A model generated the notes under the pieces. It worked only from the letters and a program-made list of their open reading frames with translations. It was not told the DNA's origin and ran no database searches. 57,164 bases of DNA. Origin: Vulcanimicrobiia bacterium (GTDB lineage: Bacteria > Vulcanimicrobiota > Vulcanimicrobiia > Vulcanimicrobiales > Vulcanimicrobiaceae). Below are positions 46,970 through 53,016 of the stretch, piece by piece. The stretch lies in contig JAMXLK010000036.1 in NCBI GenBank assembly GCA_024281075.1, positions 1 to 57,164 on the forward strand. Direction: 5' to 3'. Position 1 is the stretch's first letter, and every line of letters begins with the position of its first letter. The translations under genes and the position numbers were made by a program.

Positions 46970-48209
46970 GATCATCGCGGTCGGCACCGAACTGCTGCTC
47001 GGTCAGCTCGTGGATACCAATACCGCGTACATCGCGCAACGGTTGGCCGAGGCTGGGATCGACGTGTATGGCAGTGCGGCAATCGGTGACAATCGCGGGC
47101 GCATCGCGCAAGCCGTCCGCGGCGCGCTGAGTCGCGCCGATGGCGCGATCATGACCGGCGGTTTGGGCCCGACGGTCGACGATCTAACGCGCGACGGCGT
47201 TTGCGCCGCACTCGAACTCGACACGGAACTCTACGCACCCGCGCTCGAGCAAATGGAGAAAACTTTTACGGCCCTTGGCCGGCCTATGCGTGCGAACAAT
47301 CGCAAACAAGCGGAGCTTCCGTGCGGAAGCACGCCGCTCGACAATCCAAACGGCACGGCGCCTGGCTTCATCGCGTTCGCCCGCGACGGAAAGTTCGTCG
47401 CGTGCATGCCCGGTGTGCCGCGCGAGATGAAGCCGATGATGACCGAAAAAGTGCTGCCGTTCGTTCGCGAGCGTTTGGGTAGCGGCAACGGCATCTACAC
47501 GCGCGTGCTGCATACGATCGCGATCGGCGAGTCGGAGATAGACCATCGCATCGCCGACCTTTTCCGCAGCTGCGAAAATCCCAAGATCGCGGTGCTCGCT
47601 CACGATTTTCGGGCGGACGTCAAGATCATGGCGAAAGCGCCCTCGAGGGAGCGTGCCGAAGCGATGATCGCACCGCTGCAGGCCGAGCTCGAGCGCCGCC
47701 TTGAAGGCTACGTTTTCGGCTGCGATCGCGGAACGCCGGCGAGCGCGATACACCACCTATTGCAGGAACGAAAGAGTATGCTCGCCGTCGCGGAGTCGTT
47801 CACCGGGGGACGGATTGCTGCGGCACTGACCAGCGTCGCCGGTTCGTCGGAAAGCTTCGCCGGCGGCGTCGTCGCGTATGCTAATTCCGCCAAGATCGCT
47901 TTACTCGGCGTTGCCTCGGCGACGCTGGAGCGCGCCGGTGCCGTCAGCGAAGAAGCCGCGCGCGAGATGGCGGCGGGTGCCCGCACGCGATTCGGCGCGG
48001 AGCTCGCGCTTGCGACGACCGGTATCGCCGGACCGGGCGGCGGATCGCAGGAGAAGCCGGTCGGACTGGGATGGCTCGCGCTCGATGATGCGCGCAGCGG
48101 CGTGCTGGTGCGGCGCCTTTCGCTCGCGGGAGACCGCGAGACTATCGCGTCGCGCGCGACGACGATTGCCTTGGGAATGCTCTGGCAGCATCTCGCATTG
48201 TCACCCTGA
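46956..48209 (+). CDS. cinA: CinA-family protein (competence/damage-inducible; NMN deamidase-type C terminus)
   Basis: 417 residues. The N-terminal molybdopterin-binding-like domain (VEIIAVGTELLLGQLVDTNT, MTGGLGPTVDDLTRD) is followed by the C-terminal CinA domain (AESFTGGRIAAALTSVAGSS, TTGIAGPGGGSQEKPVGLGW), which in PncC-type proteins recycles NMN. That would fit the NAD genes upstream. The typical AESCTGG motif reads AESFTGG, so its Cys is Phe. The last codons lie in a dispersed repeat. Confidence 0.92.
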   Translation: MPSVEIIAVGTELLLGQLVDTNTAYIAQRLAEAGIDVYGSAAIGDNRGRIAQAVRGALSRADGAIMTGGLGPTVDDLTRDGVCAALELDTELYAPALEQMEKTFTALGRPMRANNRKQAELPCGSTPLDNPNGTAPGFIAFARDGKFVACMPGVPREMKPMMTEKVLPFVRERLGSGNGIYTRVLHTIAIGESEIDHRIADLFRSCENPKIAVLAHDFRADVKIMAKAPSRERAEAMIAPLQAELERRLEGYVFGCDRGTPASAIHHLLQERKSMLAVAESFTGGRIAAALTSVAGSSESFAGGVVAYANSAKIALLGVASATLERAGAVSEEAAREMAAGARTRFGAELALATTGIAGPGGGSQEKPVGLGWLALDDARSGVLVRRLSLAGDRETIASRATTIALGMLWQHLALSP

Positions 48210-48219
48210 GCCCGTCGAA
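48199..48219 (+). repeat. Dispersed palindromic repeat, partial copy D at converging gene ends
   Basis: TGTCACCCTGAGCCCGTCGAA matches the family core. Both cinA (plus) and the Gfo/Idh gene (minus) end within it, with the two stop codons a few bases apart. Confidence 0.65.
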
Positions 48220-49238
48220 TAACCGATCGCCGCGAGCGCTTCTTGCGTATGGAGCGCGTCCTCGAAGCTCGGCAGCGTATTCGGTTGGCGCTCGATCTTT
48301 TTGACGAACTCGTCGTAGAGCTCCATCATCGGTGGGACGTTCGGCTCGATCTGCGCGTAGCGCGCGTATGGCGAAGGTTTGCATCGCAGCTCGCTGGTCT
48401 CATTTGCGTCGACCGTGTAGAGCGTCACGTCGGCGATCCACGGCCCGCTTGCCACGGCCGTGCGCTGCTCGCCGTGAACCGCGCACGTATATGATTCCAC
48501 TGCCGCGGTTGCATCGGCGCTGACGCGTGCCGCCAAGCCGTCCGAATATTCGAAGAGCGCGAAAGCGCCGTCGGCGACGTCGCTGCGAAAGCTGCCGCCT
48601 TCGTCGTGGCGTTCGGTGTTTGCCGTACGTTCAAAGCCGAGGACTCGAAGCGGTGGGCGTCCGGCGAGCCAGTTTGCGTGGTCGATTAAGTGCGACATGA
48701 CGGCGCCGGTGAGGCCCCCGCCGCGCTCGCGCTCGAACCACCACCCGCGCGAGCGCCGGTCCTGGCGGCGCAGCGATGCGCGAAGAAGGTTGATTTCGAT
48801 ATTCCGCAGCGGATCGAGATGACCGTTGACGACGAGCTCTTTGAGCGCCTGTGACTCCGGCACGAATCGGAACTCGTGTGCAACCCCGCACGCCGTTTCG
48901 GCAGATCGTTCTGCGTCCCGCATGCTGCCCGCATCGGCGACCCGGAGTGCGAACGGCTTTTCGCACATGACGTGCTTGCGCTGAGCCAAAGCGGCGAGAA
49001 CGTCGTCGCGATGGGAGAAGGGCGGCGACGCGACCGTGACGGCGTCGAGATCGACGCCGGCAAGCATCTCCGCGCACGATGGGAATGCGTGTGCGATGTT
49101 TTCCGCACGTGCTACCTGCGGCGCGCTCGACGGTGAGGCGAGCGCGACGACCTCAAACCGCGGATGATTGCGCAATGCCGGCAAGTGCACGCGGATACCA
49201 AAGCCCGCACCGACGATTCCGATCTTGTATCGCTTCAT
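48201..49238 (-). CDS. Gfo/Idh/MocA-family oxidoreductase
   Basis: 345 residues. The N-terminal Rossmann fold (KIGIVGAGFGIRVHLPALRN) and HVMCEKPFALRVADA with the EKP motif are the family marks; the C-terminal half is the alpha/beta substrate domain (GGGLTGAVMSHLIDHANWLA). These enzymes oxidise or reduce sugars, inositols or similar, with NAD(P). It is the last gene of a coupled three-gene run (LuxC-type reductase, aminotransferase, this gene) and overlaps the aminotransferase by 4 nt. Its last codons (STGSG) come from the repeat. Confidence 0.88.
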   Translation of the reverse strand: MKRYKIGIVGAGFGIRVHLPALRNHPRFEVVALASPSSAPQVARAENIAHAFPSCAEMLAGVDLDAVTVASPPFSHRDDVLAALAQRKHVMCEKPFALRVADAGSMRDAERSAETACGVAHEFRFVPESQALKELVVNGHLDPLRNIEINLLRASLRRQDRRSRGWWFERERGGGLTGAVMSHLIDHANWLAGRPPLRVLGFERTANTERHDEGGSFRSDVADGAFALFEYSDGLAARVSADATAAVESYTCAVHGEQRTAVASGPWIADVTLYTVDANETSELRCKPSPYARYAQIEPNVPPMMELYDEFVKKIERQPNTLPSFEDALHTQEALAAIGYSTGSG

Positions 49239-50500
49239 GCAACCGCTCCAATGGACGATTCCAAAACCGCGATGGCGCGCTCGAGTTGCCGATCTTCAAT
49301 GACCAGCGGCGGTGAGATCGCGATAACGCTGCCGTGCTGACCAGACTGCGCCACGATGACGCCGCGCGTCAGCGCGTTCTTAACCGCCGCAAAGGCGGCT
49401 CCGGCGTCACGCAGCTCCACCCCCCATAGCATGCCGCGTCCCCGAACGTCCCGCACGATCGAGTGCGCGCGAAGCGCCTCGAGCCGCGCCCCGAGTCTTT
49501 CGCCGAGCCTCGCCGCGCGTGCCGGCAGAGCGAGCAGCTCCATCTCATCAAGGGTGGCGAGCGCGGCGGCGCATCCAAGCGGGTTACCGAGGAACGTCGA
49601 CGTGTGCAATGCTTCACCCGTGGAGGGAGGCCATGCGTCCATGACGTTCGCGCGGCCGACGGCGGCGCTGATCGGGACGCCGGATCCCATTGCCTTGCCG
49701 ATGCAGATGATGTCGGGCACGATGCCTTCGTACTCGCTCGCAAACCACGTTCCGGTGCGCGCGAAACCGGTGAAGATTTCGTCGACGATCAAGACGATAT
49801 TGAGCTCACGGCAGATTGTGGCGACGTGCTGCAGATACCCAGGCGGCGGGACGATGCAGCCCCCGCGGCCTTGAATCGGCTCGACGACTAAGGCGGCGAT
49901 GTCGTCGGTCGGTTGCAGCTGCTCGCGTGCACGCGAGGCGGCCTCGTCAGCGTTTGCCGTCGAACGGGGGTACTCGAGCAGAACGGGTTCGTGACGCAAC
50001 ACCCCGGCGAAGGGCGTTCGAAAACGCTCGAGCCCGGACACGGCGAGCGCGCCGAAAGACAGGCCGTGATAGCCGCCGCGATACGACGCGAAACGTGATT
50101 TGCCGGTGAAGAGCATTGCGGTCTTGAGCGCGGCTTCGATCGCTTCCGATCCGCTGGTCGCCAGAAACGCTTTGGTGAGCGTGTCAGGCAAAATCGCGGC
50201 CAACCGGTCGAGCAGGCGCACGCGGATTTCCGTTGGATGGACGTCGCCCATCCCATGCATGAGACGTTGCGCCTGATCCGCGACGGCAAACGCTACGCGC
50301 GGATTGCCGTGCCCGAGGCTCGCGACACCGAAAGCGGCCGTGCAGTCGATGTAGTCGTTGCCGTCCACGTCGGTCACGATCGCACCGCGTGCCGAATCCC
50401 AGAAAATCGGAAAATCGTCGGCCAGAAAGGTGACGTTACGCTGTTCGCGGGCACGCAGGCGCAGACCGAGCGCTTTGCTATGAGGTCCTGGAATCTTCAC
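49235..50500 (-). CDS. Class III PLP-dependent aminotransferase
   Basis: 421 residues. The PLP lysine is K269 in IICIGKAMGSGVPISA; VEPIQGRGGCIVPPPGYLQH and VDEIFTGFARTG are conserved, as is TSGSEAIEAALKTA. Class III enzymes transfer amino groups to or from aldehydes such as succinic semialdehyde, acetylornithine semialdehyde or long-chain aldehydes. Its upstream partner can make an aldehyde from an acyl-CoA, so a product amine is plausible. Overlaps both neighbours by 4 nt. Confidence 0.9.
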   Translation of the reverse strand: MKIPGPHSKALGLRLRAREQRNVTFLADDFPIFWDSARGAIVTDVDGNDYIDCTAAFGVASLGHGNPRVAFAVADQAQRLMHGMGDVHPTEIRVRLLDRLAAILPDTLTKAFLATSGSEAIEAALKTAMLFTGKSRFASYRGGYHGLSFGALAVSGLERFRTPFAGVLRHEPVLLEYPRSTANADEAASRAREQLQPTDDIAALVVEPIQGRGGCIVPPPGYLQHVATICRELNIVLIVDEIFTGFARTGTWFASEYEGIVPDIICIGKAMGSGVPISAAVGRANVMDAWPPSTGEALHTSTFLGNPLGCAAALATLDEMELLALPARAARLGERLGARLEALRAHSIVRDVRGRGMLWGVELRDAGAAFAAVKNALTRGVIVAQSGQHGSVIAISPPLVIEDRQLERAIAVLESSIGAVA

Positions 50501-51699
50501 GTCTCGTCGCCGATCCAGCTTACGAATTCGGCAATGCGCGGACGCCCGCCGTGAAAGACGCCTAATGACGGAGCTTGGAGCGAACCGAAACGCGCGATAC
50601 GGGCCGCCTTCGTGCGCAGCGCAAGGTCCCGAACATCGTTGCGGTCGCCGGCGATGGCCAGCGCTTCGAGCGTGATCCCGTGGCGGGAGAGATACGCAGC
50701 GGCGTCCGCGGGACGCGCGACGCGATGAATGCCGAGCGTGCGCGGCAGAAAAAACGGCGGCGACGCGCGCGGCGGATCGAGTACGGCGAGATACTGCGCA
50801 CCGGCGTCGGCAAAGTATCGTTCGCCGCGAAAAGCCGCGAGGTCGCGCGCCGCCGCCCGGCGCGCCGGCGCCGAGGCGTCGTCAAGCACGCTCGGAAGCT
50901 CGGCGCCCACGTCGCGCAGCGCCGTCGCGAGGTGCTCGGTGAATTCATGCACGCCGATCGCGCCGCCCTCTTCAACGAAGAGTGCGTGCAGCGACAAACA
51001 TCCCTCGCTCTCGTAAAGAATCAGGTCCCGCGCTGCGCCGGCGGCAATCGCTGCAGCGGCGTTCGCGCCGGCAAGCGCTTCGCGCGCGACGTAACCGGCG
51101 CTCGCTTTCGTTCCATATCCGATCATTCGCGTAGGGTACGGAAGGTTTGACGAAATTTCGGCAAGGGTCGCATCGCTGCCGAACGCGACCACCACATCGA
51201 ACTCCCGAAGCGTCGCCGTCTCCGCGTCGCCGTTCCACGAGCGCGCGGCGACGGCATCCCGAATTTCCGGAAGCTCTGAAGTAAGCGTTTCGAAAAACGC
51301 CGTCGCGAGGTAATCCTCGCGGTCCTTGACCAGCACGGTGCATTTTGCGCAGAGCGCGAAGATTGCAGGAGCGATCGCGACGCCGACCGTCGTGCGGCTC
51401 GAGACGATGCAGACGCGTCCGGCCGGCAACGCAGCCGCACGCGCACGACCGGATCGTTCCACGAAACCATCGAGGACGTCGAGCGAGCCGAGCTCGTCTT
51501 CGATGACGCATTCAATGCTATCGCGGCGTAGCGAGCCAAAGAGGCGATCGAATGCATAATCGATCATCGGTTCGGAATAGCCGGTCCGCCGCACGACCGC
51601 ATCGCGCGCACGCACGCGCGGTTCGAAACCCGCGTCGCACCAGGCAACCGCAGCTGCGTCGATTGCCGCGACGATGGCGCGGACCGGCGCCTTAATCAT
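50497..51699 (-). CDS. LuxC-type acyl-CoA reductase
   Basis: 400 residues. The LuxC family reduces acyl-CoA or acyl-enzyme to an aldehyde with NADPH. VCIVSSRTTVGVAIAPAIFA and CTVLVKDREDYLATAFFETL are like its nucleotide/acyl domain; C234 in YESEGCLSLHALFVEEGG fits the catalytic Cys. An open frame upstream to 52143 is antisense to the DUF1565 gene, so I use ATG 51699. No luxAB or luxD is present, so this is not bioluminescence. It leads the run into the aminotransferase. Confidence 0.8.
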   Translation of the reverse strand: MIKAPVRAIVAAIDAAAVAWCDAGFEPRVRARDAVVRRTGYSEPMIDYAFDRLFGSLRRDSIECVIEDELGSLDVLDGFVERSGRARAAALPAGRVCIVSSRTTVGVAIAPAIFALCAKCTVLVKDREDYLATAFFETLTSELPEIRDAVAARSWNGDAETATLREFDVVVAFGSDATLAEISSNLPYPTRMIGYGTKASAGYVAREALAGANAAAAIAAGAARDLILYESEGCLSLHALFVEEGGAIGVHEFTEHLATALRDVGAELPSVLDDASAPARRAAARDLAAFRGERYFADAGAQYLAVLDPPRASPPFFLPRTLGIHRVARPADAAAYLSRHGITLEALAIAGDRNDVRDLALRTKAARIARFGSLQAPSLGVFHGGRPRIAEFVSWIGDET

Positions 51700-51777
51700 C
51701 GCTTCATCTCTTCCGGAGCACGAATCGTGACTCCCCGAGGTTCCGGCGCGCGGTGCGGCAAAGGGGTGGAGGACCTC

Positions 51778-53016
51778 ATGCAGAGTCGTTGGTTCGCGCG
51801 CCTTTTTTTCGCAATCGTCGCTGCGCTGGCAGCCGGCGGTATCCTCGGGGGGACTGCCTGTACCCGTTGGGGCCAACCCGGTCCCGCCATACCGAGCCTT
51901 GCACCCCTTTCGGCGCTGTATGTCGATCCCGTTACCGGAAGCGATACGACGGGGAACGGCAGCATCGCAAAACCATACCGCACGCTGACCAAAGCCGTCG
52001 CAGTGTTTACGGCCGCCAAAGTCCTCTCCCCCAACGGTGTGATCATTCATTTGGGCATCGGCACGTACGACGCAGCGAACGGCGAGCAGTTTCCGATCGT
52101 CGTGTCCAAGACGGTGACGATCCAGGGAACGAACTTCGGCCACAATCCGAGAAGCGGGTCGTTCATCAACGGCTTAGGTGAAGATACCACGTTCGAGCGA
52201 GTCGTCGGAGCGCCGCCGCACAGTGCCTACACCACCCTGGAAGCCGTGCCGCCGGCGGGCCTGAGCGTCTCCGACATCTACGTCGGCGCGACGAAAATTT
52301 CTCTCGGCGCGAAGGCCTTTTACGCGTCGGTCGACGTACTCGGGTCGCTGATCGGCTCGGATTCGAGCTTCGCTGCGGGCGTCGTCTCGTCGTTCAGAAA
52401 CGTGGACGGGGTGCTGGTCGCGGGCGGGTCATTGACGTGCAACTCCTGTCAAATCCACGGCAACAACTTTGGAATCGGCGGCATCTCGGTGCCCATTGCG
52501 ACGGCTTCGCCGTACGCGGCGGCACCGTCAATTACGCTCGACCGCGCCCTCGCCGACAGCACCATTGCGGCTAGAATCGTTGACATTGCAACCGACGGCA
52601 GCGTCGACGTATCGGCCTCGGATGAAGATTTCGAACGCGGCCTCTACGCGTTTACCGATGCTCTTGCGCCCGTAGTTCCGTCCACCGTTCGCGGCGGCAT
52701 CGACTTCGGCGGTGGATTCGCGGGCTCGGTTGGCGGAAATAATTTCATCGGCGCACATCGGAGCGAAATCTTTTTAACGCGCCGCGGCGTGATCGTCAGC
52801 GCGCTCGACGACACCTGGAACCCGCGGCAGCAAGGCGCGAATCGCAGTGGCCAATATCCGCGCGCGCACACCTTTTCCGCGGGCGCCGCCGGGAAGAACG
52901 TGACGATCCGGCAGAATGCTATCGGCAGCACCGTCATGGTCGGGCCTGCCATCGTTCCGACGCCGACGCCCTCAATAAGCCCGTCGGCCTCGCCCAGCCC
53001 GACCCCGACTCCGTAA
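51778..53016 (+). CDS. Secreted DUF1565 beta-helix-type protein with Pro/Ser/Thr tail
   Basis: 412 residues. N-terminal signal peptide LFFAIVAALAAGGILGGTAC, possibly a lipoprotein (Cys at the end of GGTAC). The start of the mature part, ALYVDPVTGSDTTGNGSIAK then PYRTLTKAV, is the DUF1565 pattern that begins many right-handed beta-helix surface proteins. The C terminus is a low-complexity PTPTP/SPSASPSP tail, perhaps a spacer or O-glycosylated stalk. Divergent from the LuxC-type gene and 5 nt before trpC. The exact start (51778 or further up) is uncertain. Confidence 0.8.
   Translation: MQSRWFARLFFAIVAALAAGGILGGTACTRWGQPGPAIPSLAPLSALYVDPVTGSDTTGNGSIAKPYRTLTKAVAVFTAAKVLSPNGVIIHLGIGTYDAANGEQFPIVVSKTVTIQGTNFGHNPRSGSFINGLGEDTTFERVVGAPPHSAYTTLEAVPPAGLSVSDIYVGATKISLGAKAFYASVDVLGSLIGSDSSFAAGVVSSFRNVDGVLVAGGSLTCNSCQIHGNNFGIGGISVPIATASPYAAAPSITLDRALADSTIAARIVDIATDGSVDVSASDEDFERGLYAFTDALAPVVPSTVRGGIDFGGGFAGSVGGNNFIGAHRSEIFLTRRGVIVSALDDTWNPRQQGANRSGQYPRAHTFSAGAAGKNVTIRQNAIGSTVMVGPAIVPTPTPSISPSASPSPTPTP

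Follow-up and report, generated by a model that had tools for sequence, protein, structure and literature searches.

What does a run of three tightly packed genes, encoding a LuxC-family acyl reductase, a class III aminotransferase and a Gfo/Idh-type oxidoreductase, make in the 57,164-nt contig JAMXLK010000036.1 of a Vulcanimicrobiia bacterium (assembly GCA_024281075.1; this whole stretch is the window below)? The first two genes, LuxC and AT3, our label for the window's class III aminotransferase, are a genuine biosynthetic unit, conserved and little described. Together with LuxE, a partner encoded elsewhere in the same genome, they probably act as a relay of three enzymes that takes a carboxylic acid, most likely a hydrophobic (fatty) one, to a primary amine. 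The genes of the run are as follows.

50497..51699, minus strand: LuxC-family acyl reductase, 400 amino acids (PF05893, E 1e-40; Cys234 in ESEGCLS)
49235..50500, minus strand: AT3, class III (pyridoxal phosphate, PLP) aminotransferase, 421 amino acids (PF00202, E 9e-102)
48201..49238, minus strand: Gfo/Idh/MocA oxidoreductase (PF01408, E 6e-24)

Open reading frame calls and Pfam matches make these consecutive genes, transcribed on the minus strand in the order LuxC, AT3, Gfo/Idh. LuxC and AT3 share the 4 nt GTGA (50497-50500), with the GTG start of AT3 inside the LuxC stop, and AT3 and Gfo/Idh share ATGA (49235-49238); the Gfo/Idh gene also overlaps the end of a convergent cinA gene (48209). 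An earlier note on this DNA had described the three genes as coupled by 4-nt overlaps, and the open reading frame ends bear out both. The box that it drew around the system, 50497-53016, does hold LuxC and a divergent DUF1565 gene, but AT3 and Gfo/Idh fall below it. The LuxC frame as listed (548 amino acids, start 52143) is too long: because the Pfam match begins at residue 3 of the 400-residue protein and GGAAGAG stands 8 nt upstream of its start codon, ATG 51699 is the likely start.

Is the run kept in relatives? We surveyed 60 related genomes, incomplete metagenome-assembled genomes (MAGs) among them, grouped as families f1 (which holds the window's genus), f2 and f3. LuxC is present in 49 of the 60, AT3 in 49 (E ≤ 1e-80) and Gfo/Idh in 33 (E ≤ 1e-40). 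LuxC and AT3 matches are adjacent on the same strand in 39 of the 45 genomes having both; the exceptions are three f3 genomes with 399-415 nt between the matches, the LuxC match being partial, and three genomes with the matches on different contigs. Of 33 genomes with both AT3 and Gfo/Idh, 31 have them side by side. For adjacency counts, outgroup rows (G056, G058 and G059) and second fragments were dropped and one LuxC position (G041) was added. The exact 4-nt LuxC/AT3 overlap occurs in 31 of 36 measured loci, and a 4-nt overlap joins AT3 to Gfo/Idh in 13/28 and LuxE to LuxC in 5/19; the measurement took the start nearest the upstream stop, a choice that favours overlaps.

The expectation that the genes would be kept together in relatives thus holds for LuxC and AT3 throughout the class. 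The three-gene order proposed earlier fares less well, Gfo/Idh being restricted to one family. It is kept in 19/19 f1 genomes outside the window's genus and in 13/18 inside it (MAGs, some incomplete). The two f2 loci that we read hold only a distant Gfo/Idh (26-27% identity), and f3 yielded no linked copy. On this f2 and f3 distribution we rejected Gfo/Idh as a core member, leaving LuxC and AT3 as the core.

The core has a partner. The earlier statement that lux genes are absent is mistaken for the genome as a whole: the window's own genome carries a LuxE homologue (PF04443) on another contig (G000:C57:5071-6105). By protein query, LuxE was detected in 53 of the 60 relatives, one of them weak (G056). 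Outside the genus, it lies directly upstream of LuxC in 30 of the 34 class genomes in which both were found (f1 15/19, f2 4/4, f3 11/11), the remaining f1 genomes having LuxE-LuxC gaps of 1,364-1,451 nt in three and 3,959 nt in one. Within the genus, LuxE directly precedes LuxC in 0/12 genomes, and its neighbours in the loci read were judged by eye to be metY, leuC/leuD or rpoA genes. The LuxE profile matches the solved LuxC-LuxE complex 7xc6 (E 3.9e-33), with GCSL aligned to 7xc6_E, and the C-terminal Cys336 is invariant across 19 rows of an alignment that, like the others here, excluded fragments and outgroup genomes. In the luminous system, this Cys carries the acyl group and LuxE uses ATP. 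The existence of such a partner makes a free acid, activated by LuxE, a more likely entry substrate than the acyl-CoA proposed in the earlier note, whose acyl-to-aldehyde-to-amine logic and coupling otherwise stand.

For the second enzyme, LuxC scores 140 bits against PF05893 (gathering score 21) and 34 bits against the NCBIfam model NF052251 for long-chain fatty acyl reductases (cut-off 750); judged by these scores, it is a member of the PF05893 family and not an NF052251 equivalog. Its profile matches 7xc6_A (E 4.6e-28) with the conserved Cys aligned to YDQQACFS, and this residue, Cys234 in the window, is invariant in a 24-row alignment. The corresponding Cys of the luminous system is catalytic and takes the acyl group.

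The third enzyme, AT3, keeps the PLP Lys269, and its AF2 (AlphaFold2) model (pLDDT 93.0) has a GABA-transaminase as its nearest fold (36% identity). Its best NCBIfam score is 312 bits against a cut-off of 639, the best 25 of 69 models all being below cut-off, and with the PigE model it scores 274 bits where 850 are required. Compared with rows for GabT, OAT and ArgD, it has Leu147 for their Arg (YHG[R]), Arg212 for their Glu and no Arg394, the window residue there being Ala394. Arg212 is found in 73/73 AT3-group rows and 0/14 control rows; Arg394 is found in no AT3 row (3 are gapped there) and in 10/14 control rows; and Leu147 is found in the window, in 38/38 other class rows and in 23/24 myxobacterial rows, these residue counts including four myxobacterial sequences twice. 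The Arg residues of GabT, OAT and ArgD at these positions bind substrate carboxylates. Given that role, the loss of Arg at 147 and 394 fits a substrate that lacks a distal carboxylate. In trees, which used 5 of 20 extra myxobacterial rows and took the ArgD and GSAM rows from genome G025, AT3 groups in a class III clade of its own, apart from GabT, OAT, PatA, ArgD and GSAM (BioA was not included). We therefore rejected AT3 as a stand-in for any of these five, whose rows branch elsewhere. The window's genome encodes eight class III aminotransferases, and the five scanned besides AT3 are GABA-, ornithine- and putrescine-aminotransferase-like, PigE-like and of PRK06062 type; the ornithine enzyme alone passes its NCBIfam cut-off, as against the putrescine and GABA ones.

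How might these three proteins act together? LuxE would activate the acid with ATP and bind it by a thioester bond to its C-terminal Cys; the acyl group would then pass to the Cys of LuxC, where NAD(P)H-dependent reduction would yield an aldehyde; and AT3 would transaminate the aldehyde to an amine. Gfo/Idh would be an accessory added at the family level, with a sugar-like or other partner as its substrate. A hydrophobic chain is favoured because the Arg residues credited with carboxylate binding are lost and because the solved relatives handle fatty acids. The direction of the relay, its chemistry in these organisms, the chain length, the product and the role of Gfo/Idh are all what we infer; an amino-lipid product is possible.

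Acid-to-aldehyde-to-amine routes have been described before, with a different reductase family. TamA-TamH of tambjamine biosynthesis converts a C12 acid to a C12 amine through ATP-dependent acid activation, conversion of the thioester to an aldehyde and class III transamination to the fatty amine (PMC9594044). There, however, an ANL-ACP fusion is the activating protein, an acyl-ACP-reductase-type domain is fused to the transaminase and the genes sit in a natural-product cluster (PMC9594044), whereas LuxE, LuxC and AT3 are separate, widely conserved proteins. PigE of prodigiosin biosynthesis likewise combines thioester reduction, shown with cell lysate, and class III transamination of the aldehyde in one protein, but it has an acyl-ACP-reductase-like N-terminus and no LuxE (PMC8341465). 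AT3 is by comparison a single-domain protein of 421 amino acids with LuxC a separate gene, unlike fusions of the TamH/PigE type. On the reading above, the LuxE-LuxC-AT3 set works like TamA-TamH and PigE but belongs to other enzyme families.

Three further comparisons place the set. It shares with luminous LuxC-LuxE (7xc6) the families PF05893 and PF04443 and both aligned Cys residues, but here AT3 follows LuxC, and LuxC is far below the NCBIfam equivalog cut-off. The flagellar glycosylation islands of Aeromonas (luxE, luxC, ACP) also hold LuxE and LuxC outside light production, but as far as the available text of that study goes, a class III aminotransferase occurs in group I and luxC/luxE in group II, with no coupling described (PMC7874193). 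GluTR-GSAM of tetrapyrrole synthesis also passes a reductase-made aldehyde to a class III PLP enzyme, a comparison drawn in PMC8341465, but the reductase is another one and AT3 stands apart from GSAM in trees. Among the matches listed in our literature searches, none described a LuxE-LuxC-aminotransferase operon.

Does the set occur outside the class? Searching with seven LuxC sequences from f3 returned 51 loci. In 43 of them LuxE precedes LuxC in the same orientation, and in 12 a class III aminotransferase is a direct neighbour of one or other gene: 6 from the window's class, 2 from Nitrospirota and 4 from Polyangiaceae/Myxococcales. The last have the order AT3-LuxE-LuxC, with LuxC after LuxE in 4/4 loci read, and Myxococcales and window-class AT3 form one clade (support 100/99). 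One myxobacterial trio (L182) was scanned, with LuxC at 59 bits against a cut-off of 21. A second sample, 59 relatives of one Myxococcales genome (G061), was counted for AT3 and LuxE and not for LuxC: AT3 is present in 55 and LuxE in 56, with both in 53, AT3 alone in 2 and LuxE alone in 3. In 51 of the 53 the two lie on the same contig and strand, and in 47 they are no more than 300 nt apart. The Nitrospirota aminotransferases fall outside the AT3 clade and have the canonical Glu/Arg, and LuxE was not seen in one of these two loci; LuxC has accordingly acquired a class III aminotransferase partner on more than one occasion.

In 39 of the 45 other-phylum loci, some of which end at contig edges, no AT3 was seen beside LuxC. 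From these 39 we picked ten genomes with LuxE-LuxC by hand for spread over Gemmatimonadota, Acidobacteriota and Deltaproteobacteria, and all ten carry an AT3 orthologue (41-51% identity), unlinked, elsewhere. All ten orthologues have Arg212 and fall in the AT3 clade (quick tree, SH-aLRT 100). Judged by eye, only housekeeping or unrelated genes neighbour LuxE-LuxC and AT3 in other phyla. A neighbourhood of dnaX-ybaB-recR type, its genes again named by eye, surrounds AT3 or lies close to it in six loci (L224-L229; Acidobacteriota and one Deltaproteobacterium).

Several results weigh against a fatty acid-to-amine relay. First, the case is built from genes, residues, linkage and co-occurrence, from which substrate and product are predicted. 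Second, LuxE matches are weak: the Pfam model detects LuxE in only 32/60 genomes, the own-genome LuxE passes the PF04443 cut-off of 24.9 with 34 bits, and the LuxE of L182 passes it with 25.8. Third, Leu147 is not universal in the clade, being found in 6/10 of the Gemmatimonadota, Acidobacteriota and Deltaproteobacteria rows, with Thr in 3 and Val in 1. Fourth, the location of AT3 by recR/dnaX-type genes in Acidobacteriota looks like core metabolism and not like a lipid cluster. Fifth, we read four regions around distant plasmid LuxC genes (L103-L106; Pantoea, Azospirillum, Priestia and Lactiplantibacillus) from 27 plasmid records. All four have a gene for an SDR or 3-oxoacyl-ACP reductase nearby after LuxC, and three have transporter genes near it (ABC after it in Azospirillum and Priestia, a solute carrier before it in Lactiplantibacillus), so the LuxC family need not act on fatty acids. 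All four also have a short ligase gene before LuxC, LuxE-like by place and size only; as a separate observation, these ligase-LuxC-SDR sets resemble an acid-to-alcohol module. Finally, the published polar lipid record of a cultured relative, Vulcanimicrobium alpinum, names no aminolipid.

The plasmid LuxC contexts and the position of AT3 by recR/dnaX-type genes make one rival serious: the same acid-to-aldehyde-to-amine chemistry may act on a small core metabolite, such as a polyamine, vitamin or amino-acid-like acid, and not on a fatty acid. Such a role would suit genes found almost everywhere in the class and among the myxobacterial relatives, and likewise the housekeeping neighbours of AT3 in other phyla. 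Leu147 and the missing C-terminal Arg, by the roles attributed to the replaced residues, disfavour carboxylated substrates, the solved relatives are subunits of the luminous fatty acid reductase, and the genome has separate ornithine-, putrescine- and GABA-aminotransferase-like genes. We regard a small metabolite as a substantial but still rather unlikely substrate.

It is improbable, in our judgement, that LuxE-LuxC makes an aldehyde or alcohol for some other use, with AT3 co-transcribed but separate in function. The 39/45 other-phylum loci without AT3 beside LuxC would be expected under such independence, but AT3 is linked to LuxE/LuxC in two lineages with opposite orders (LuxE-LuxC-AT3 and AT3-LuxE-LuxC), AT3 co-occurs even when unlinked, and the two Nitrospirota loci show both activities paired a second time. 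Weakest of all, to the point of being very hard to credit, is catabolism in reverse, from amine to aldehyde to acid: transaminases are reversible, but LuxE, an ATP-using acid activator, would be superfluous there and conservation across a class is atypical for a catabolic island.

The relay from fatty acid to amine can be put to a direct test in culture. G025, a one-contig genome of the window's family that apparently belongs to V. alpinum WC8-2, has LuxE, LuxC, AT3 and Gfo/Idh in one run. This species is available as DSM 115291 (PMC9758169), and its published lipid record reports all polar lipids, glycolipids included, as unidentified. This record leaves room for new lipid chemistry and does not support a free amine. 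The four genes in one run together with the unidentified polar lipids make the prediction directly testable.

The set is kept class-wide and recurs in other phyla, with AT3 below the cut-off of each of its best-scoring NCBIfam models, and so is apparently a basic biosynthetic step that awaits assignment. If the amine is long-chain, abundant soil bacteria would have a new route to fatty amines and perhaps to a lipid class that is itself new. A bolder extension, which we offer as speculation and think doubtful as a whole, is an undescribed core pathway common to Eremiobacterota, myxobacteria, Gemmatimonadota and Acidobacteriota that makes long-chain primary amines for a membrane lipid yet to be recognised; Gfo/Idh, in the window's family, would adapt a sugar partner to give an N-alkyl glycolipid, fitting the unidentified glycolipids of V. 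alpinum.

The family-level Gfo/Idh protein has a confident AF2 model (pLDDT 94.9), with scyllo-inositol dehydrogenases as nearest folds (~21% identity). Lys94 (EKP motif) and His183 are invariant and Ala179 nearly so in 23 rows, and alignment to 2glx places Ala179 opposite the usual motif Asp. In two f2 loci (L047 and L050), a Gfo/Idh-like gene after AT3 lacks the EKP Lys (E-V-P or R-V-P), so its protein may be inactive or changed in function. One in-frame stop each, from assembly error or decay, interrupts the LuxE match of G027 and the Gfo/Idh matches of G032 and G005.

Upstream of LuxC, the window continues with two further features.

51700..51777, no strand: gap separating the divergent LuxC and DUF1565 starts (LuxE sits upstream of LuxC in most relatives outside the genus)
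51778..53016, plus strand: DUF1565 protein gene, a neighbour not counted as part of the system (PF07602, E 1e-17)

The DUF1565 gene had correctly been described as divergent from the run; its start and N-terminal signal are by-eye judgements only. Among 40 relative loci in our neighbourhood survey, drawn from 48 other genomes with a LuxC match, the gene was found in 13. It lies beside LuxC in the window's genus, and in three family members (L034, L036 and L037) it separates LuxC from LuxE, a position that looks like an insertion and on which we rejected it as a pathway partner; the insertion would have taken place before the two genes parted. The MetY and CoA-binding genes that precede LuxE, in an unbroken row in several family members, were likewise rejected as pathway members because LuxE has changed its orientation or place in the window's genus. 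Finally, a different LuxE-LuxC set occurs in the same phylum: in a phylum-level relative (G058, of the L057/L058 pair), LuxC carries a fused AMP-ligase-type domain, and genes beside it encode LuxE and a PALP-type PLP protein. The neighbourhood survey saw no AT3 match at L057 or L058 (G058 and G059), and G059 is similar to G058 by clustering.

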